IMG/VR virus record: IMGVR_UViG_3300036770_008723
Span: 1 to 33,307 of that record
From: a virus
DNA: 33,307 nucleotides
Reading direction: 5' to 3' (one strand)
The position numbers were made by a program, and so were the translations under genes. Numbering within the stretch: position 1 is the stretch's first letter; each line of letters begins with the position of its first letter. The notes beneath the pieces are model-generated. The model ran no database searches. It was given only the letters and a program-made list of their open reading frames with translations, and had not been told where the DNA came from. Positions 194-24,181 of the stretch are shown here, one piece after another.

Positions 194-1087
194 ATGAGCA
201 AGGTGCGTGTTGGCTTGGTCCAGATGGCGCTGAAGGCACCGACCTCGGCGCCGGTCGCAGAGATTCGCGACGCGATGAATGCCGCCCATGCCGAGCAGGT
301 GCGCCAGGCGGCGGAGCAGGGCGTGCAGGTGATCTGCTTCCAGGAGGTGTTCAACGCCCCGTACTTCTGCCCGGTGGCGGAACCGCGCTGGCTGGAAGCC
401 GCGGAGCGCGTGCCGGAAGGTCCAACGACGCAGCTGATGTGCCAGCTCGCCCGCAAGCACAGCATGGTGATCGTGGTGCCGCTCTACCGGCGCCACGATG
501 ATGGCCGCAAGACCAATACAGCCGTGGTGATCGACGCCGACGGCTCGGTCCTGGGCACGTATGAGAAGACCCACATCCCGACCATCGGCGCGCATCTGCA
601 TACGATGATCGGCAACGAGGAGCGCGGCACCGAGCGCTACTGGTTCGAGCCAGGGACCAAGGGGTTCCCGATCTTCCAGACGAGGTACCTGAAGCTGGGT
701 GTCTACATCTGCTACGACCGGCACTTCCCCGAAGGCTGGCGTGCCCTCGGTCTGGCCGGCGCCGAGTATGTCGTGAACCCCTCGGCGACCTGGAAGGGGT
801 TGAGCCAGCACCTCTGGACGCTGGAGCAACCGGCGGCCGCGGTAGCGAACGGGTTCTATGTCGGTGCCATCAACCGCGTCGGTGTCGAGGAACCCTGGGC
901 GATCGGCGAGTTCTACGGGTCGAGCTATGTGGCTGATCCGCGTGGCCGCATTCTGGCCCAGGGACCGGACGATCGCGACGCGCTGGTAGTGGCCGATATC
1001 GACCTCGATGTCGTCCGCGAGGTGAAGGCGACGTGGAAGTTCGACGAGCATCGCCGTCCCGAGACCTACGGCGCCCTCACGCGCTGA
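194..1087 (+). CDS. Nitrilase-superfamily amidohydrolase, beta-ureidopropionase-like
   Basis: A 297-residue protein covering a full carbon-nitrogen hydrolase domain. The catalytic triad is visible as Glu51 (in CFQEVFNAPYF), Lys125 (in YEKTHIP) and Cys173 (in YICYDRHFPE). Together with the VNPSATWKG segment these point to the N-carbamoyl-beta-alanine amidohydrolase branch, which releases beta-alanine, CO2 and ammonia in reductive pyrimidine breakdown; the substrate is inferred. The enzyme is cytosolic, with no signal peptide. The ATG at 194 follows a GGGGAG ribosome binding site. The gene is plus-strand and converges on the phage tail chaperone, overlapping its 3' end by 11 bp. It is either phage cargo or the first host gene beyond a truncated prophage. 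No other pyrimidine catabolic gene is in the window. Confidence 0.9.
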   Translation: MSKVRVGLVQMALKAPTSAPVAEIRDAMNAAHAEQVRQAAEQGVQVICFQEVFNAPYFCPVAEPRWLEAAERVPEGPTTQLMCQLARKHSMVIVVPLYRRHDDGRKTNTAVVIDADGSVLGTYEKTHIPTIGAHLHTMIGNEERGTERYWFEPGTKGFPIFQTRYLKLGVYICYDRHFPEGWRALGLAGAEYVVNPSATWKGLSQHLWTLEQPAAAVANGFYVGAINRVGVEEPWAIGEFYGSSYVADPRGRILAQGPDDRDALVVADIDLDVVREVKATWKFDEHRRPETYGALTR

Positions 1088-10092: not shown

Positions 10093-12018
10093 TCAGCGCA
10101 GCCAGCCGGAGCGGGCACCGAGCCAGATACGAGGCCGGATCGCCGCCGAGCTGTTTGGTGCCAACGTGGTCGGCGCAGCGCGTGCCTGGTCCAAGGTCGC
10201 GAACGTCTCGCTGCCGGCGGGTGGGGCTCTGGTGGCAATCGGCGCGTCCGCCAGTTCCTCTCTCAGCCGCTGCCAAAACCGCTCGCCATAGCGATCGGCG
10301 CCCAGCAACCACAGCGCGGCGCGCGCCAGCACGGCGCAGTCCAGCGCCTCGTTCCGTTCCCTGAGCTTCGACCATTCCTGCCGGGCGAACCCGCGCCGGT
10401 CCTTGGTGGTGCGCAACTGCTCAGCAACCAGCTGCTTCACCCACTCAACCTCGATGGCCCGCGGCAGATGCACCCAGCCCTGCGGGTAAACCTCTGTCTC
10501 ACCGCGACCCAGCCAGAGCCGGCGATACAGGTCCGCCTTCCAGGTCGAGACCGACACCGTCCAAAGCTTCAGCCCGCGGCGCAGCTTCTGGCCATTGACC
10601 AAGGCATCGACCAGCGTCGGTCCCTGCACCGGCTGTGCACGGTTCCAGCCCTCGACGCCCTTGGTTGGGGCAATCCGCGGATCCCGGAGGTGCCGTAGGT
10701 GGCCATAGACCGAGGCCGTGTCCCGGCCGCCGGTGTCCACGCATACCTTGGCGATGCGTATCGCGCCGGCAGTGCCGCGCGGCCAGTCCCTGGCCAGCAG
10801 CTTCGCCAATTCCTCCCATGGCGCACGCTCCCTCGGGCTGCCGGGAATGACGACATGGTCGACCAGCCAGGAGGTGAAGCCCTCGGCCCAACCCCACACA
10901 TCGATCTCGATCCGGTCGTCCTGCACGTCGACGCCGGCCGTGAGCACCAGAGCGCCGGGCGGCACGATCCCGATGGCGAAGTCCTCTCGCCGTTCGACCA
11001 GACGCTCCCAATCGGGCGCCTCGCCATGCTCCTGCCAGACCTCGCCGAGCACCGTGTTGCGAAAGGTCTTGAGGTCCTCCGCCTTGCCCTGCGCCGCCTC
11101 CCAGTCGCGCGCTATCTGCTCCCACGACAGCCACCCCACCGGCGAGTAGAGCGCCGAGATGTGGTAGCCGACCGTATGCGGGTCCGATGCCTCCGCCGTC
11201 GCCCGCCACTCCCCGCCGGCCAACATCGCCGTCTTGTGGTGTTCGCCGATCGGCGAGTCGCAGGCCTCGCAATGGTAGGCGGCGCTGGTGGGATTGCCTT
11301 TCGTCCAGATCAGCCGCTCGAACCGGAGCCATTGCATCGCCTGGCAATGCGGGCACGGCACGAAGAACCGCCGCTGGTCGCTGGACTGGAACTCCCGCTC
11401 GATCCGGCTTCTGCCGGCGATGGTTGGCGTCGAGACCAGGAACACCTTGCGCCGCCAACCAAATGTCCGCGCCCGCGCCTCGGCCAGGGCAATGGGGTCT
11501 CCCTCGCCTTCGACATCGCCGGGATAGGCGTCCACCTCGTCCAGGAACAGGAACCGCGCCGTCATCGAGCGCAGCCCGACTGCCGAGTTGGCACCGGTCA
11601 GCACCAGGATGCCGCCCGGGAACTCCTTGGACAGCATGGTGTTGCCGCTGTCCCTGGCCCGCGCCGGTGCCACCCGCTCCCGCAGCGCAGGCGTCTCCTC
11701 CAGGAGGGGATCGATCCTCTGCCGGCTGAAGCGTTTGGCCAGTTCCACGGTCGGCTGCACCGCCAGCACTGGGGCCGGCACGTGGTGCATGATGTAGCCC
11801 AGCCAACAATTGCCCCCCTCCGACGCGCCGACCTGTGCGCCCTTCATGAACACTACGCGCCGGGCGGGATGCACCGCGGAGAGCGCATCCATGATGTCCC
11901 GCAGATACGGGGTCCGCGACGTGCGCCACGGCCCCGGCTCCGACGAAGCGCGGGTGCTCAGCACGCGATGCTGGTCGGCCCATTGGCTGACCGTGAGCTG
12001 CGGTGGCGGACGCAGCAT
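10093..12018 (-). CDS. Terminase large subunit, lambda GpA family
   Basis: A 641-residue packaging motor. The ATPase domain has the Walker A-like GAQVGASEG (60-68) and Walker B FLFLDEVD (156-163). A zinc-ribbon region follows (CPHC near 220 and CEAC near 250). The C-terminal RNase H-like nuclease begins at ALVLTAGVDVQDD (about 353-365) with its first acidic residues visible. The length is normal for the GpA family. The protein cuts concatemeric DNA at cos-type sites and translocates it into the prohead through the portal. It starts 26 bp after the TerS stop. Confidence 0.95.
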   Translation of the reverse strand: MLRPPPQLTVSQWADQHRVLSTRASSEPGPWRTSRTPYLRDIMDALSAVHPARRVVFMKGAQVGASEGGNCWLGYIMHHVPAPVLAVQPTVELAKRFSRQRIDPLLEETPALRERVAPARARDSGNTMLSKEFPGGILVLTGANSAVGLRSMTARFLFLDEVDAYPGDVEGEGDPIALAEARARTFGWRRKVFLVSTPTIAGRSRIEREFQSSDQRRFFVPCPHCQAMQWLRFERLIWTKGNPTSAAYHCEACDSPIGEHHKTAMLAGGEWRATAEASDPHTVGYHISALYSPVGWLSWEQIARDWEAAQGKAEDLKTFRNTVLGEVWQEHGEAPDWERLVERREDFAIGIVPPGALVLTAGVDVQDDRIEIDVWGWAEGFTSWLVDHVVIPGSPRERAPWEELAKLLARDWPRGTAGAIRIAKVCVDTGGRDTASVYGHLRHLRDPRIAPTKGVEGWNRAQPVQGPTLVDALVNGQKLRRGLKLWTVSVSTWKADLYRRLWLGRGETEVYPQGWVHLPRAIEVEWVKQLVAEQLRTTKDRRGFARQEWSKLRERNEALDCAVLARAALWLLGADRYGERFWQRLREELADAPIATRAPPAGSETFATLDQARAAPTTLAPNSSAAIRPRIWLGARSGWLR

Positions 12019-18296: not shown

Positions 18297-18513
18297 GGCC
18301 ATGCCCTCCCTGTCGACGCCCCCAGCGTCGGTTGGCTTCGTTGGTGATGGCCTGGCGCAGCCAGGGATCGGTGATGTCTTCCACCGGGATGGCGGCAACA
18401 CGGTGCTCGTGCCAAGCGCGGGCACGCATGGCCTCGATGTCCATCGCGGTGGACGGGCTGCGTGCCAGGTCCAGAGACGACCGTGGGGGTTGCGGCGCAC
18501 CGGGGAGCCTCAT
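18286..18513 (-). CDS. Small hypothetical phage protein, 75 residues
   Basis: A 75-residue protein with a helical core (MDIEAMRARAWHEHRVAAIP, then DITDPWLRQAITNEANRRWG) and a basic His/Gly/Arg-rich end. The ATG overlaps the resolvase stop (ATGA) and has GGAGG 6 bp upstream. I recognise no named family. Its tight coupling between the resolvase and the DUF6456-like gene suggests a role in the same DNA-processing programme. Confidence 0.72.
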   Translation of the reverse strand: MRLPGAPQPPRSSLDLARSPSTAMDIEAMRARAWHEHRVAAIPVEDITDPWLRQAITNEANRRWGRRQGGHGHGR

Positions 18514-19061
18514 GCCCGCCCTCCGGTGCTGGAGGTCGCCCACAACAGCAGCGCCAGGGCATCGGCCTCGTTGTCGTCGGCAGGGTGGAAGCCACGGGCC
18601 TGCATGGCGGCGATCACGGCGGCTTTGTCGGCGTTGCCCTTGCCGGTGGCGAAGCGCTTGATCGTGCCCACCGGGACGCCCTCGTAGGGGATGCTGTTCA
18701 ACTCCGCCCAGGACGTGAGCGTCGCCAGCAGTCCGCCGAAGACATGCGCCGCGTCAGTGCCGATGTGCCGGCGGACTTCCTCGAACACGATCCGGTCGAT
18801 CGGTCCAGCCAGATTGAGCATCTCGCGCAGCCAGCCGTGGAAGCGGAGATACCGCATCCCGCCGCCTTCGAACCGGCCGGACCTGAAGCTCATCGTACCG
18901 GAGGTGATGCGGTCGTCGCGGGTGCGCAGGGCCCACCCAGTGGCGGTGCCGAGGTCGAGAGCGAGCACGGCCGGTGTGCCGGCCAGGATGGGCGGTGATG
19001 CGGGTAGGGCGATGACGGGGCTTGCCAGGGCCGTGGGCACGGCCAGAGTCGCAGAAGCCAT
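18510..19061 (-). CDS. RuvC-like Holliday junction resolvase
   Basis: A 183-residue RNase H-fold nuclease. Acidic active-site residues are visible: Asp36 in LALDLGTATGWAL, Glu94/Glu95 in IVFEEVRRH, and the C-terminal cluster DDNEADALALL (162-172). KGNADKAAVI (141-150) is the usual basic segment before the last acidic motif. Phage RuvC relatives resolve branched DNA produced by recombination and replication before packaging. It lies downstream of the primase and is coupled to the next gene. The first about 28 residues are Ala/Pro-rich, so the true start could be slightly internal. Confidence 0.9.
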   Translation of the reverse strand: MASATLAVPTALASPVIALPASPPILAGTPAVLALDLGTATGWALRTRDDRITSGTMSFRSGRFEGGGMRYLRFHGWLREMLNLAGPIDRIVFEEVRRHIGTDAAHVFGGLLATLTSWAELNSIPYEGVPVGTIKRFATGKGNADKAAVIAAMQARGFHPADDNEADALALLLWATSSTGGRA

Positions 19062-19192: not shown

Positions 19193-22126
19193 TTACGGCA
19201 CCCCGTCCAACCAGGCAGGAGGATCGACCGGCGGGGAACCTTGGATAGAAGGTTCCCCACCAGGTTCCTCGGCAAAGTTGCAGTCCTGGCCTACATCCGG
19301 GGAACATGGGGAACCTGGGGAACCTATTTCCGGGTTCCCTGATACATACGCGCGTGCGCGCACACGTGTAGGGATGAAAAATGGTTCCCCAGGTTCCCCA
19401 GGTTCCCCACTTGCAGTTGGCGACAGCGAGTTTACGAGGGGAACCTTTGGACCAGAGGTTCCCCGATCTGCCCCAAGGTTACCCGCCGGGCCGCTGTCGC
19501 GGGCCTGATCGAACTCGTCAGGGCCAGCCATGACCCGAAGCCGCCATTTGCGAGCGTTGTGAGCGACCGGCCCGAGCTCGACCCTGACCTTGCGATAGGC
19601 GATCTGAAAGACGCGATCCCGCATCTTGGGGAGCAGCATGCCGAAGCGCGTCCGCTGCGACCGCTCGCTGCCTTCTCCGATATTGATCGCAGGGTCCGAC
19701 CGCACCGCGAGATCGAACAGATCTGCTACACCCACCTCGGCAGTGCCGAACCTGTCCCACCACGACTGCACGAAGGCGCGCCACGCGGCGCCCTCCGCGT
19801 CGGAAGCTTCGAGAGCCTCATTGAGGTTGCCCAGGAAGCCTTCGACGCCGATGGTCTCCAGCACACCACCGATGATCTGCGCCCAATTCTCGTAGCTTCC
19901 GAGGCTCCGGCTCCCTTTCGGCTGCCCGGCGGCGATCCAGGCCTGGCACAGGGTCAGGCAGGCACCGACCAGCGTGCCGCGGTTGGAGCGAACCCAGCCC
20001 ATGAGGTCCGGGTGACGGAAGGTATCGCGGCGCCAGGGCTGGTCGACGCGAGCGTCGAGGCGGATGCGGACCAGGCGGCGGGCCATCTCGTTCGAGAAGG
20101 AAGGGTTATTGCCGGTGGCGATCCAGGTGCAGCGGATCGGCAGCCGGACCATCTCCGAGACGCCGAGGATACGGTCCTCCCAGAACGGGGCGGTGAGTGC
20201 CGCGGCGAGCGCGGAGGCATCGAGTTCGTGGCGCAGGTTGTCGATCAGCACCATGGAGGGGATCTGGCGCAGCTTGGCGGTGATGCGCTTGCGCCATTCC
20301 TCATCGTCACGCCCCTCGGTCATGACGGAGGCGCCGGTACCGGTGAGGATGGTGGAAATGGCGTCCACCATCAGCGTTGCGCCGGTGCCGGGTGTCGGCT
20401 TCTCGATCAGGTGCAGCGGCGTCGGCCCATCGATCATGGCGCGGAGAAAGCCGAGCAGGAGGAGCGCCGCGGCGTGGGCCCGCTCGGCAGCACCGACGAA
20501 GGGAAACTCGCCCAGCAGGTCGTCCAAGATCAGTGCGCGGGCGGCGGCAATCTGCGCGGCTGTGGGACGGTCTGGGATTTCCGAGACAGAGAAGCCTGGC
20601 GCTGCGTGGTAGAGCAGCCGGGCATCGGGGTGATAGCCTGGCTCGGTGAGCAACGCGCCGTTGCGGCCGAACACCGGTGTGCTGACGATGCCGGTGAGCA
20701 CCGGCAGGTTGACGTCAGGGGTGGCGAGCAGCGACTTCACTAACCCGGTGGGAGGCGGCGCCGGGATGAGATCGCCCTGCCGGTTGATCTTCCGCCAGGT
20801 CGCGACCAGCGCCAGCATGTGCCGGAGGCGCTCGTCGTTGAGCGTGGCCACGGTGGGGCGGCCTTCGTCATCGGGCACGAGCCAGCTGGCCAGCCCGCCG
20901 GCACGGAACAGCCAAGGTGGGTTGTTCGTGCCTTGCAGCACGGTCCAGGTCCGGTTGACTGCGCGCTTGAGGTCGCCTTCGTCGGCGCGAAGCTGTGGCA
21001 CCTGCTGGCCAGGGTCGCGAAATCCGATCGGCAGATGTCGGCCGACCGGCGTGACCTGCTCGCCCTCAGGGGGTTCCTGGCGCGTGGCGGCGGCACGCAG
21101 GAGCGCTGCCACCGTCTCGGATCCGTCGCGCACCAGCATGTCGTTGAAGTCGTCGCCCGGCTCCGGCGGCAGCGCGATCACCGCGCGCCGTCCATCGCCC
21201 TTGAGCCGGCGCAGCAGCGTCTCGGCGGCGCGCAAACCGGCGCCGGACGGGTCGTTGTCCGCCAGGATCAGGATATGCCGCGCCTCGGGGGGTAGCTGAA
21301 CCTGCTCCATCCCTGAGGTGGACAGCGCCGCCCAGACCGGCAGGCCAGGGCACGCCGTCATGACCGCCAGCCCGGTTTCGATGCCTTCCGACAGGCCGAG
21401 GAAGCCTTCGGCGCCAATGGGGGCGAGCCGCACCGCGCCGCCGCCAGGCTTGCCGAGCATCATGCGCGGCTTGGTGACCGGCGCCTTCGCAATCCGATCA
21501 GGTGCCTGTTCATCGGCCGCCAGATAGGTCCGGTGGATCGCGGTCACCTCTCCCGCACCGTCCCGCACGACGCCGATCAGCGCCGGATAGCCGGATTTGC
21601 TCTCCCAGTGGGTCAGGTCAGGATGAAAAAGCAGGTCCACGCAGGCCGGCGGCAGAAGGCCACGCTGCTGCAGGTATGCTTCGGCTGCCGAGCCAGCGAG
21701 CGCCACGGCATGATCCAGGATGAATCGTATCTCGTGCCCAGTGTCGCGCTCGGCCTTCGGCGGCGGGGACGGCTCCTGGCGCGCAGGAGGCGTGCCGGAC
21801 CAGCCGACCATATCGGCCGCGTGTGCATAGAGATCGCGACCGGAGAGCCTCGTCCCATTCCCCAATGTGCTGAGCGGTCCACCTCCCTGGTCGCCATCAA
21901 AGTCGTGCCAACTGCCGGCATGCTCGCCGGTGAGGGTGATGACACAGGAGCCGTTGTTACGCGGCGGATCACCGTGGATGTTGGCCAGGCGCCACTCGTT
22001 TCCTGTCCGGCGGCCGTTGGGGAACATGCCCGGCACCCAGGCATGCGCGGTGTCGCGCAGTCGCTGGACGATCGCATCGAGGTCATAGCGGACCGGGGCC
22101 GCGGCGACGTCATTCAGGTCAATCAA
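19193..22126 (-). CDS. Toprim primase with C-terminal helicase-like domain
   Basis: A 977-residue protein. The N-terminal 110 residues form a primase-associated region (GNEWRLANIHGDPPRNNGS, SWHDFDGDQGGG). The Toprim core spans about 140-345, with LSEGIETGLA (245-254) and LADNDPSGAG (288-297). The C-terminal half (about 400-840) is an AAA+-like ATPase with the altered P-loop PTPGTGATL and a Walker B-like MVLIDNLRHEL. The last about 100 residues are Gly/Pro/Ser/Glu-rich (GEPGEPGEP, GSPGSPCSP), encoded by the repeat array at 19233-19464. It probably primes and unwinds phage DNA for replication. A TTG at 22126 is the start, overlapping the helicase gene by 8 bp. Confidence 0.9.
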   Translation of the reverse strand: MIDLNDVAAAPVRYDLDAIVQRLRDTAHAWVPGMFPNGRRTGNEWRLANIHGDPPRNNGSCVITLTGEHAGSWHDFDGDQGGGPLSTLGNGTRLSGRDLYAHAADMVGWSGTPPARQEPSPPPKAERDTGHEIRFILDHAVALAGSAAEAYLQQRGLLPPACVDLLFHPDLTHWESKSGYPALIGVVRDGAGEVTAIHRTYLAADEQAPDRIAKAPVTKPRMMLGKPGGGAVRLAPIGAEGFLGLSEGIETGLAVMTACPGLPVWAALSTSGMEQVQLPPEARHILILADNDPSGAGLRAAETLLRRLKGDGRRAVIALPPEPGDDFNDMLVRDGSETVAALLRAAATRQEPPEGEQVTPVGRHLPIGFRDPGQQVPQLRADEGDLKRAVNRTWTVLQGTNNPPWLFRAGGLASWLVPDDEGRPTVATLNDERLRHMLALVATWRKINRQGDLIPAPPPTGLVKSLLATPDVNLPVLTGIVSTPVFGRNGALLTEPGYHPDARLLYHAAPGFSVSEIPDRPTAAQIAAARALILDDLLGEFPFVGAAERAHAAALLLLGFLRAMIDGPTPLHLIEKPTPGTGATLMVDAISTILTGTGASVMTEGRDDEEWRKRITAKLRQIPSMVLIDNLRHELDASALAAALTAPFWEDRILGVSEMVRLPIRCTWIATGNNPSFSNEMARRLVRIRLDARVDQPWRRDTFRHPDLMGWVRSNRGTLVGACLTLCQAWIAAGQPKGSRSLGSYENWAQIIGGVLETIGVEGFLGNLNEALEASDAEGAAWRAFVQSWWDRFGTAEVGVADLFDLAVRSDPAINIGEGSERSQRTRFGMLLPKMRDRVFQIAYRKVRVELGPVAHNARKWRLRVMAGPDEFDQARDSGPAGNLGADRGTSGPKVPLVNSLSPTASGEPGEPGEPFFIPTRVRARAYVSGNPEIGSPGSPCSPDVGQDCNFAEEPGGEPSIQGSPPVDPPAWLDGVP
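19233..19464. repeat. Symmetric GGGGAACC/GGTTCCCC repeat array, candidate origin
   Basis: In order on the plus strand: a 10-bp stem GGGGAACCTT/AAGGTTCCCC with a 6-base loop (19233-19258); three direct 9-mers GGGGAACAT, GGGGAACCT, GGGGAACCT (19299-19325); an alternating purine-pyrimidine tract (19342-19370); three GGTTCCCCA 9-mers (19383-19409), the inverse of the first triplet; and a 9-bp stem GGGGAACCT/AGGTTCCCC with a 9-base loop (19438-19464). The whole is near-symmetric about 19355 and lies in the 3' coding end of the primase. Direct 9-mers beside a replication gene suggest iterons. Confidence 0.8.
19342..19370. other. 29-bp alternating purine-pyrimidine tract (Z-DNA prone)
   Basis: Every base from 19342 to 19370 alternates purine and pyrimidine, passing through GCGCGTGCGCGC and CACACGTGTA. 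Such tracts can adopt Z-DNA under negative supercoiling. It sits at the centre of the symmetric repeat array. On the minus strand it encodes the segment around TRVRARAYV in the primase tail. Confidence 0.8.
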
Positions 22127-23402
22127 GGATCACCAGCCCCCGCTCGGCGCGGGTAATGGCGGTGTAGAGCCAGCGGGCACGGTCCTCGGCGGAGTGGCCG
22201 TAGCCGTCGTCGTAGACGATGACGTTGGGCCACTGGCTGCCCTGCGCCTTGTGGCAGGTGATGGCGTAGCCCCAGGTGGTCTCGACCAGCCGCCGAACAT
22301 CGCGCCAGTCGCGACGGGCACGCTCAGGGTCGAGCATGACGTGGTCGTCGAAGTGACCCTTGTAGAACCTCTGCCGCCCAGGGATGGCGGTGCCGTCTTC
22401 GGTGGTCACCGCGGCGGTGAAGGCGAGATGGTCCTCGTCCTGGAGATCGCTGAGCGAGACGAACATCCCGTTGACCAGGCCGAGGTCATGCCGGTTCTTC
22501 AGGCAGATGATCTTCTCGCCGCGGCCCTCCGGATAGATCGCCGGAAACCCGGCGGCATGCTTCATGGCGGCGTTGAGCTGCAGCCGTGTCGCGTTGCGCC
22601 CGCAAATGACCTGGCCGCCATTGAGCAGCTGGGTGGGCGAGACCTGATGCCGCGGCATCTTCCAGACCAGGTCGTCGTGCGCGCCGTGCGGGATGTGCTG
22701 GCGCTCGCGTGCCAGGGTGGCGAGCCGGATGATGGCGCTCTCGCCGGCCTGGCGATGGATCTCGGTCAGCATCACGTCCGGGGTCGCCTCGGTGAAGGCA
22801 CCGGCGCCCTTGATCGGCGGCAGCTGGCCCGGGTCACCCAGCACCAGGATCGGCTTCCCGAAGGCCAACAAGTCGTTGGCCATCTCGGTCCCGACCATCG
22901 ACACCTCGTCGAGCACGATGAGGTCGGCCTCTCGCACCATCGACTGCTCGTTGAGCAGGAACTGCGGCTTGTGGATGTCGGCGAGGCGGAGCTCGAGGCG
23001 GCGGATGCGTGTCTCGGCGAACGCCCGTTCCGCTGGGCCCATGCCACGCAGGGAGTTGCGCAACGCCGCCAGGTCCTTCTCGACCCGCTCGATTTCCTCG
23101 GGCGTCGCCTCCGACACACGGTAGATCAGGCTGTGGATGGTCGAGGCGGGCGTGCCCTTGCGCGTCATCACCAGCGCGGCCTTGCCGGTGAAGGCAGCGA
23201 ACAGCACGCGTCCGGTCCACCGGCCTTCATCCGGCTCGATGCTGAGGCCCATGGCCTCGATCGCATGGGCGGTGATGGTGCTCTTGCCCGAACCGGCGTA
23301 GCCGAACAGCCGGAATACCTGCTGGTGGTGTCTGCGGTTCTGGTACCAGTCGACGATGGCGCGGATGGCGGCGGCTTGCTGCGGGGAGGGGGTGAAGCTC
23401 AT
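22119..23402 (-). CDS. RecD-like superfamily 1 DNA helicase
   Basis: A 427-residue helicase with Walker A GYAGSGKST (34-42), Walker B VLDEVSM (163-169), motif III LVLGDPGQLPP (187-197), and C-terminal motifs with TCHKAQGSQWPNVIV and LYTAITRAERG. This set matches RecD/Dda-type 5'-3' helicases; the length is that of compact phage forms without a RecD N-terminal domain. It acts on DNA in the cytoplasm, in replication restart or recombination. The ATG at 23402 overlaps the exonuclease stop (ATGA), which decides the start over an upstream one at 23420. Confidence 0.93.
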   Translation of the reverse strand: MSFTPSPQQAAAIRAIVDWYQNRRHHQQVFRLFGYAGSGKSTITAHAIEAMGLSIEPDEGRWTGRVLFAAFTGKAALVMTRKGTPASTIHSLIYRVSEATPEEIERVEKDLAALRNSLRGMGPAERAFAETRIRRLELRLADIHKPQFLLNEQSMVREADLIVLDEVSMVGTEMANDLLAFGKPILVLGDPGQLPPIKGAGAFTEATPDVMLTEIHRQAGESAIIRLATLARERQHIPHGAHDDLVWKMPRHQVSPTQLLNGGQVICGRNATRLQLNAAMKHAAGFPAIYPEGRGEKIICLKNRHDLGLVNGMFVSLSDLQDEDHLAFTAAVTTEDGTAIPGRQRFYKGHFDDHVMLDPERARRDWRDVRRLVETTWGYAITCHKAQGSQWPNVIVYDDGYGHSAEDRARWLYTAITRAERGLVILD

Positions 23403-24181
23403 GCGGCGGTCTCCCAGCATCGGGTTGCGTAGGGGCAGAAGCGGCAGAGGTGGAAGTCAGGGTTGGCAGCGATGCGCGGCGGCAGTTCGCCGGCTGCGGC
23501 GGCGCGCATGATGTCAACGGCCCGATCGGACAGGCGCTGTGCCTCGGCAGGCTCGAAGGGCACCGCGATGTGGTGCAGTGCCAGGCTGTCGCGGTTGAGG
23601 GCCGTGAACAGCGTCACCTCGAGATCGAGGTAGGCCATGTAGAGCTGCACCTGGGCGAAGTAGACCGGCTTGGACTGGCGCAGCCCGCGCTTGACCAGGT
23701 CGTTCCAGGACTTCGAGTTGAGGGCCTTGTGCTCGAAAAGGGCCGGCCACTGGATACCGACATCGGGCCCGGCGACGATGACGCCGTCGGCATGGCCACG
23801 CAACCGGCCACCGGCGACACTGAAGCCGAACTGCCGTCCATCGGCGCCGCGGTCGCGGAGGTCGAAGCCAGCGCTGCGCAGCCAGCAGATGGTCATCGCT
23901 TCGAACTGGTGGCCCGCCTCGAAGACGCGCAGGATGCCGCCGTCGAACTCGCCGTCGGGGTCCTTCGGCGTGTGGGTAACCTCGAAGACCAGCTTACGCG
24001 CACACTCCTCGCCGACGCGGCTGCCGCCGAGATAGTCGCGTGGCACCTGGCGACGGTTCTGCGCGACGAGAGCCGCATCGATGTGCGCGTTGACGCGGGT
24101 GGTGGTGTCGCCGGTGGCGGTGGTCGGGCTGGACCTGCCATAGACGAAGCCAGATTGATGGTTGAGATCGATCAACACCAT
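23399..24181 (-). CDS. PD-(D/E)XK exonuclease with Fe-S cysteines, Cas4/AddB-like
   Basis: A 260-residue nuclease. Catalytic residues are visible as His130/Asp132 (GHADGVI), Glu150-x-Lys152 (FEHKAL) and a Gln-Tyr motif, QVQLYMAY (178-185). One cysteine lies N-terminal (Cys60, in SRVGEECARKL) and three lie at the end (Cys246, Cys249, Cys255 in FHLCRFCPYATRC). This is the four-cysteine arrangement of Cas4 and AddB-type iron-sulfur nucleases. It probably resects DNA ends to feed the RecA-like annealing or recombination protein nearby. It is coupled to the RecD-like helicase by an overlapping stop and start. It is not a CRISPR component: no array or cas genes are present. Confidence 0.9.
   Translation of the reverse strand: MVLIDLNHQSGFVYGRSSPTTATGDTTTRVNAHIDAALVAQNRRQVPRDYLGGSRVGEECARKLVFEVTHTPKDPDGEFDGGILRVFEAGHQFEAMTICWLRSAGFDLRDRGADGRQFGFSVAGGRLRGHADGVIVAGPDVGIQWPALFEHKALNSKSWNDLVKRGLRQSKPVYFAQVQLYMAYLDLEVTLFTALNRDSLALHHIAVPFEPAEAQRLSDRAVDIMRAAAAGELPPRIAANPDFHLCRFCPYATRCWETAA

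Follow-up and report, generated by a model that had tools for sequence, protein, structure and literature searches.

The α protein of phage P4, as summarized in PMC4234260 (citing Yeo 2002 and Ziegelin & Lanka 1995), is a Toprim primase–helicase initiator, which binds the short repeats of the origin via its C-terminal winged-helix domain, unwinds the DNA, and primes replication. The primase–helicase ORF904 of pRN1 also carries a C-terminal winged helix, and a stem–loop origin follows immediately on the 3′ side of the gene; among members of the pRN family, the shape of the origin is retained despite differences in sequence (PMC4234260). In the pri-rep-ori arrangement of phage-inducible chromosomal islands (PICIs) and Staphylococcus aureus pathogenicity islands (SaPIs), the origin directly follows the 3′ end of the initiator gene and has a putative melting region with one iteron set on each side (PMC6092414). 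The lambda origin has its iterons inside gene O, whose protein binds them (PMC4488673, PMC5043065). Here, we describe an array of short repeats in the 3′ end of a primase gene on the viral record IMGVR_UViG_3300036770_008723 (33,307 bases; this whole record is referred to as the window). The array is very probably a phage replication origin and the primase the initiator binding it via its C-terminal domain, because the geometry of the array is conserved among relatives, its repeats change in concert, residues of the primase change together with bases of the repeat, and selection acts on the DNA. No prior description of the array was found in the open-licence literature.

The array consists of twelve iterons of 9 bp each (consensus GGGGAACCT in gene sense) at 19233–19484 within the translated 3′ tail of the primase gene (Table 1). 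Read along the gene, the units are arranged as >(20)>(18)<(38)>(9)>(9)>(65)<(9)<(9)<(37)>(12)>(17)<, with the figures giving start-to-start distances. Eight exact copies of GGGGAACC are found in the window, all inside 19233–19464, and a second 9-mer cluster is absent from the entire 33.3 kb. An earlier note on this DNA had described an array of ten repeats; the array itself was confirmed, but two additional copies with one mismatch each (19262–19270 and 19476–19484) raise the number to twelve and extend the array to 19484. Also present are the two hairpins named there (19233–19258, 10-bp stem; 19438–19464, 9-bp stem), the two triplets of 9-mers in opposite orientation (19299–19325 and 19382–19408), and the 29-nt tract, in which every step alternates between purine and pyrimidine. 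The proposed overall symmetry applies to the core of triplet, tract, and inverted triplet, which is mirror-symmetric, but not to the outer groups, both of which are arranged as >,>,< with spacings of 20/18 and 12/17.

The type-1 repeats of P4 (GGTGAACA), which are found in crr, adjacent to the 3′ end of the α gene, on both strands and in part as tandems with 9-bp spacing, are nearly identical to the motif GGTGAACGT of the family described here. The N-terminal primase part of the window protein aligns to that of α (hhalign probability 93.5, E 2.3e-7), whereas its helicase part does not. In P4, ori and crr are separate and lie outside the α gene, whereas a single 12-site array is found here inside the open reading frame (ORF) of the putative initiator; the Z-prone spacer and 29 versions of the motif belong to the present family. 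As in the PICI/SaPI origins, two iteron sets flank a spacer, but the PICI spacer is AT-rich and the present one is GC-rich with alternating purines and pyrimidines. Moreover, the PICI origin follows the gene, whereas the array is translated in the 3′ end of the gene and lies after the stop codon only in distant relatives; the window also differs in carrying its own terminase and portal genes. The putative origin shares with lambda the position of the binding sites inside the initiator gene. However, lambda possesses four 19-bp iterons and an AT-rich segment instead of twelve 9-bp sites and a GC-rich spacer, and O works with P to recruit the helicase, whereas the protein described here carries its own primase. 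The likeness to pRN1 lies in a primase–helicase, here a putative one, with the putative origin toward the 3′ end of its gene, and in origin letters that vary within a preserved shape. We infer that the array is a P4/PICI-like iteron origin with new features.

Relatives were gathered by a pattern scan and a protein scan of viral contigs and by searching genome contigs of bacteria and archaea. This resulted in 125 non-redundant arrays with a shared layout from viral contigs and alphaproteobacterial genomes; the named hosts are mostly Alphaproteobacteria (Rhodobacterales, Roseomonas and other Acetobacteraceae, Hyphomicrobiales/Rhizobiales). Six plus six sites flank a spacer of mostly 53–68 bp, and the spacings between the iterons repeat almost to the base. 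Judged from these relatives, the layout is not due to chance. The letters, in contrast to the layout, differ between phages. The consensus 9-mers comprise 29 forms, among them GGGGAACCT, GGGGAACGT, TGTGAACCT, TGTGAGCCT, TGGGGGTCT, GGGGAGGAT, GGTGAATGT, and CGTGAGGGT; single phages carry, for example, GGGGAACCT (window), GGGGAACGT (locus L155), TGGGGACCT (L107), or TGGGGGCCT (L118). Even in L155, the closest relative with 77% protein identity, base 8 is G and not C as in the window. The iterons are 88% identical within arrays versus 64% between arrays, and orthologous positions are no more similar than others; the within-array value is somewhat inflated, because array fitting selects sites by similarity, but the rigid spacings show that the sites are real. 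This pattern indicates that all copies in a phage change together. The encoded tail is GEPGEPGEP...GSPGSPCSP in the window, a translation of the twelve units, and relatives have GEPGEPGEP, GERGERGER, CEPCEPCEP, GGPGGPGGP, GEDGEEGED, or GGSGGSGG. The expectation of the earlier note that repeat number and symmetry persist while the tail varies was borne out, with twelve rigidly spaced sites in about 125 arrays and very different tails. The central distance is variable, but in 71 of 73 arrays its length leaves the same remainder on division by three, so that the reading frame stays open through the array.

The distance between the motifs of different phages was correlated with primase segments after removal of the overall protein divergence. 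It tracks only the primase residues ~780–865, with a peak partial r of 0.54 at 819–843 and values of ≤0.25 elsewhere. The RuvC gene, which is about as near on the opposite side of the array, yielded ≤0.13. Within the same codons, fourfold synonymous sites correlated with the motif at 0.02 versus 0.56 for the amino acids; these sites are probably near saturation at such distances, and the synonymous control would be weaker if it stood alone. Linkage or block recombination as the main cause of the covariation was ruled out by the two controls.

The five residue–base pairs with the highest mutual information over the whole protein are 858–5, 856–3, 826–7, 822–6, and 830–8, with class agreement in 71–73 of 73 clusters (Fisher p 1e-14 to 1e-21). 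Alanine at 858 occurs with A at base 5 (57/57) and T/S/V with G (15/16). At 856, histidine occurs with G at base 3 (49/51) and Q/R with T (22/22), and at 822, R/K is found with A at base 6 (51/52) and any other residue with G (21/21). Threonine at 826 accompanies C at base 7 (47/49), but I/V/A never do (24/24); likewise, M/I/N/A/T/S at 830 accompany C at base 8 (33/33) and K/R/L never (40/40). When the base class differed within disjoint close pairs, the matching residue class differed in 26/27 (822), 19/21 (826), 30/30 (830), 32/34 (856), and 23/23 cases (858); with the same base class, the residue class almost never differed. On a tree built from primase residues 1–780, at least 51 motif changes were counted, and residue and base changed on the same branch 11 (822–6), 12 (826–7), 16 (830–8), 19 (856–3), and 11 times (858–5), with nearly no unpaired changes. 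Two near-minimal pairs illustrate this: L107 and L165 have three differences in the domain including L855S (base 1 T/G), and L209 and L216 have six including I826T (base 7 T/C). The covariation indicates that the putative initiator recognizes the short repeats, and it suggests nearly a one-residue-to-one-base code, in which the 9-mer and the residues reading it would have changed together dozens of times.

The AlphaFold2 model of the domain (predicted local distance difference test scores of ~83–95 over residues 780–866) contains helices at 764–793, 800–809, and 821–835, followed by a beta hairpin (845–855/858–866) with its tip at 856–857. On the last helix, residues 822, 826, and 830 follow one another at intervals of one turn; 855–858 form the hairpin tip. 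The model suggests a winged helix with 821–835 as recognition helix and the hairpin as wing. The recognition code is independent of this fold assignment.

Codon choice in the array follows the DNA motif. In the central forward units, the Glu codon (GAA or GAG) matches base 6 of the respective array in 156 of 164 cases, whereas the same genes prefer GAG two to one elsewhere, and the Gly codons match base 3 in 124 of 125 cases. The spacer is an alternating purine–pyrimidine sequence, GC-rich and rich in CG and CA steps. Its longest alternating run has a mean of 25 nt (10–36) versus 12 nt for random synonymous codons; in the same genes, all other 60-nt windows stay at or below 14 nt. These results support the claim of the earlier note that the DNA and not the encoded tail is under selection, and, together with the comparison of the arrays, its proposal of an iteron origin inside a replication gene. 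The low-complexity tail appears to be a by-product of the DNA sequence, with the ORF reading through its own origin. The alternating tract is conserved in the relatives beyond codon constraint, and its Z-prone sequence may have a role in melting or in Z-DNA formation.

Alternatively, the true origin might lie elsewhere, and the array bound by the primase domain might serve in regulation, copy control, incompatibility, or partition, comparable to a handcuffing locus or to the crr of P4. The P4 array adjoining α is indeed annotated as crr, and a separate ori with the same repeats is located ~4.5 kb away. In the present family, however, the window is devoid of another such cluster, and across 73 loci (1.0 Mb) 566 exact 9-mer copies were counted inside arrays versus 27 outside (10 expected). 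Since two iteron sets around a conserved spacer are, in addition, an origin-like arrangement, we regard a purely regulatory site as unlikely.

Still less probable is a function in the primase transcript, in which the inverted triplets, perfectly complementary over 19 bp, could fold into a long hairpin. Deviations from the local consensus in 73 arrays were uncompensated at 241 and compensated at 24 partner cells, and the compensated fraction (1.2%) is near that of non-partner units (0.8%). The same counts leave the 27-bp triplet–triplet stem of the earlier note unsupported as a selected feature. Furthermore, one unit sequence is common to all stems, which would not be needed for pairing alone, the arrays of distant relatives also occupy both strands but lie in non-coding DNA beyond the gene, and sites on both strands suit the binding of duplex DNA. 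The hairpin was ruled out on the basis of the uncompensated deviations and of an Rfam search, in which the array had no match. A protelomerase site, considered for the alternating center, was set aside as well; the array lies within a continuous gene, and the protein searches gave no hint of a protelomerase.

Selection on the protein tail itself, with its collagen-like Gly-X-Pro spacer and the DNA repeats as by-product, is hardly credible and was ruled out by the synonymous-codon and alternating-tract tests: the frame is kept and nearly all relatives have a P-x-W-L peptide after the array, but the tail sequence is wholly different between phages at constant DNA layout, each array has its own fixed synonymous bases in the units, which go with residues 822 and 856, the alternating tract has double the length expected from synonymous choice, and forward and reverse units give different peptides.

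By analogy with P4 α (PMC4234260) and the PICI origins (PMC6092414), several copies of the primase would bind the twelve iterons of the putative origin through the C-terminal domain, with helix residues 822, 826, and 830 reading bases 6, 7, and 8 and the wing tip (855–858) reading bases 1, 3, and 5. Flanking the alternating spacer, the two inner triplets would each load protein, in orientations opposite to one another. The spacer, whose tract conservation is observed, would then be opened, and the same protein would unwind the DNA and prime outward.

Several points weigh against an origin read by the primase in this way. Melting regions are not usually GC-rich like this spacer, and a cumulative GC-skew minimum 0.4–1.3 kb downstream of the array in five of eight records, including the window, is only weakly supportive. 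The C-terminal domain does not align to the C-terminus of P4 α, and its model had no significant match in the PDB using Foldseek (best E 1.2); the weak matches include the winged-helix chains of forkhead, RctB, and Cdt1, and a PDB sequence search with the whole-protein profile revealed nothing relevant. The residue classes were chosen after the training data had been seen. In a forward test with rules fixed before further genomes were examined, 33 of 33 rule checks were passed, but the test is small, with five non-duplicate loci, of which L311 (35% amino-acid distance from the nearest training sequence) is the sole truly distant one. Most new loci were re-finds, which repeat known exceptions, for example, L296 at base 6 and L309 and L312 at base 7.

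Table 1. Features of the primase gene, the iteron array, and the neighboring genes in the window. Amino acid positions refer to the primase.
Feature	Position	Strand	Remarks
RuvC-like resolvase gene	18510..19061	-	opposite side of the array; served as linkage control
Primase gene, 977 aa	19193..22126	-	DUF7146 131–234, Toprim_3 244–337 (Pfam), ATPase-like ~420–760
Primase C-terminal part			domain ~780–866, then array-encoded tail 867–977
Iteron R3	19233..19241	+	inverted partner of R2, 10-bp hairpin
Iteron R2	19250..19258	-	
Iteron R1	19262..19270	-	1 mismatch
Iterons B3, B2, B1	19299..19325	+	tandem 9-mers, opposite orientation to the A triplet; 19299–19307 with 1 mismatch
Alternating purine–pyrimidine tract, 29 bp	19342..19370	strandless	within the 56-bp spacer between the inner triplets
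Iterons A3, A2, A1	19382–19390, 19391–19399, 19400–19408	-	tandem 9-mers; 19382–19390 with 1 mismatch
Iteron L3	19438..19446	+	inverted partner of L2, 9-bp hairpin
Iteron L2	19456..19464	-	
Iteron L1	19476..19484	-	1 mismatch
C-terminal domain, winged-helix-like topology, putative iteron binder	19529..19789	-	codons 780–866; AlphaFold2 model and motif covariation
Wing (C-terminal beta-hairpin tip) A-H-N-A	19553..19564	-	codons 855–858; 856 tracks base 3, 858 base 5, 855/857 base 1
Putative recognition helix	19622..19666	-	codons 821–835; R822, T826, M830 track bases 6, 7, 8
Dda-like helicase gene	22119..23420	-	upstream of the primase gene, replication module

A short peptide, P-x-W-L with an acidic/hydrophobic end (PDWLKELDP, AWLDGVP, PDWLKEVL), follows the array tail in nearly all relatives and is encoded at 19193–19230 in the window (codons ~965–977). 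It looks selected as protein and is perhaps a docking peptide, a role that would account for the open frame across the array. Pfam gave no helicase match in the primase, and the AlphaFold2 confidence is low in the ATPase-like/helicase region. The P-loop-like sequence KPTPGTGATL (residues ~576–585, 20370–20401) has Ala at the position expected for the Walker A Lys, with G580, G582, A583, and T584 invariant in 53 relatives; the ATPase may be unusual. At the left end of the window (194–1087), a carbon–nitrogen hydrolase-like gene was recognized by eye. Because this gene resembles a bacterial chromosomal gene, the record may represent an integrated prophage with host flank.

Outside the arrays of the 73 loci, 9-mer clusters were detected only in L029 and in two cases adjoining their own array. 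The viral contig L029 has a cluster based on the related GGGGAACCT unit (11466–11691), ~8 kb from its GGGGAACGT array, and this is the only clear second array. One bacterial genome contains two elements with different 9-mers (L288 and L303; CGTGAATGT and TGGGGGTCT), and another contains two elements sharing GGGGAACGT (L210 and L216). In L228 (1–1489 and downstream), a contig of a metagenome-assembled genome, most of the array between the outer repeats is gone and the tail reads NACEPQCEPPATGSRGSPVPDWLREL, the result of either repeat-mediated deletion or assembly collapse. A different gene in L018 (3081–3638), without detected similarity to this primase, has a dense GGGGAACC/GGTTCCCC array near its start with ten exact copies, encoding GSPAGSPCGSP and RGTDRGTRRGT. 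In L009 (361–672), L012 (12241–12556), and L058 (8711–8983), GGGGAACC clusters are found close to or immediately downstream of an unrelated gene (MINIAELNKETILN..., perhaps a replication gene); in this phage group, they are possibly another origin with the same letters. Doublets of GGGGAACC in other viral contigs were mostly chance matches or located in Gly-Pro-rich genes.

In Rhodobacterales genomes, the arrays of distant relatives (ATPase region 25–42% identical) lie in the non-coding DNA that immediately follows the stop codon; they too consist of 9-mers, but the letters differ (among others, ACCGTATTx, CACCCGCCA, AATCTCCGG, and TTGCGGGGC). The order outer group, tandem pair or triplet, spacer of ~80–120 nt, inverted set, and outer group recurs in several of them, and the spacer of three to four of ten contains an alternating tract, for example ACACACACACGCGTG. 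Among annotated phages and plasmids, only distant relatives were found, none covering 80% of the primase, and the four inspected were without a comparable array. In the simplest history suggested by these arrangements, the origin would once have been located 3′ of the initiator gene, and loss of the stop codon would have extended the ORF over it; units of 9 bp preserve the reading frame automatically.

For the family as a whole, we lean toward a translated, overprinted origin of a large alphaproteobacterial phage family, in which the 9-bp iteron drifts with its initiator via a readable code. Each of five bases would be set mainly by one residue (with 855/857 influencing base 1), which would have given rise to ~30 specificities; escape from nucleases that mimic the origin, from satellites, or from rival prophages may have been the driving force. 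The alternating tract would replace the usual AT-rich melting element. A precedent for selection diversifying iterons and initiator is known from Vibrio PLE and phage ICP1, where the nuclease Odn mimics the specificity of RepA and PLE escapes by iteron change or exchange of the replication module (PMC8263062), although with another initiator and ~30-bp iterons. According to this case, origin-directed nucleases can select for specificity turnover.

The family would thereby offer a natural library of ~30 initiator–origin specificities with matched protein and DNA, whose code is readable from sequence alone. It raises the questions of how an initiator and a dozen sites shift specificity jointly without loss of function, what makes phage origins diversify, and whether Z-prone tracts could act as opening elements of origins in GC-rich genomes. 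It also suggests that an ORF can run through its own origin, and that what seems to be a low-complexity protein tail may be a DNA signal.

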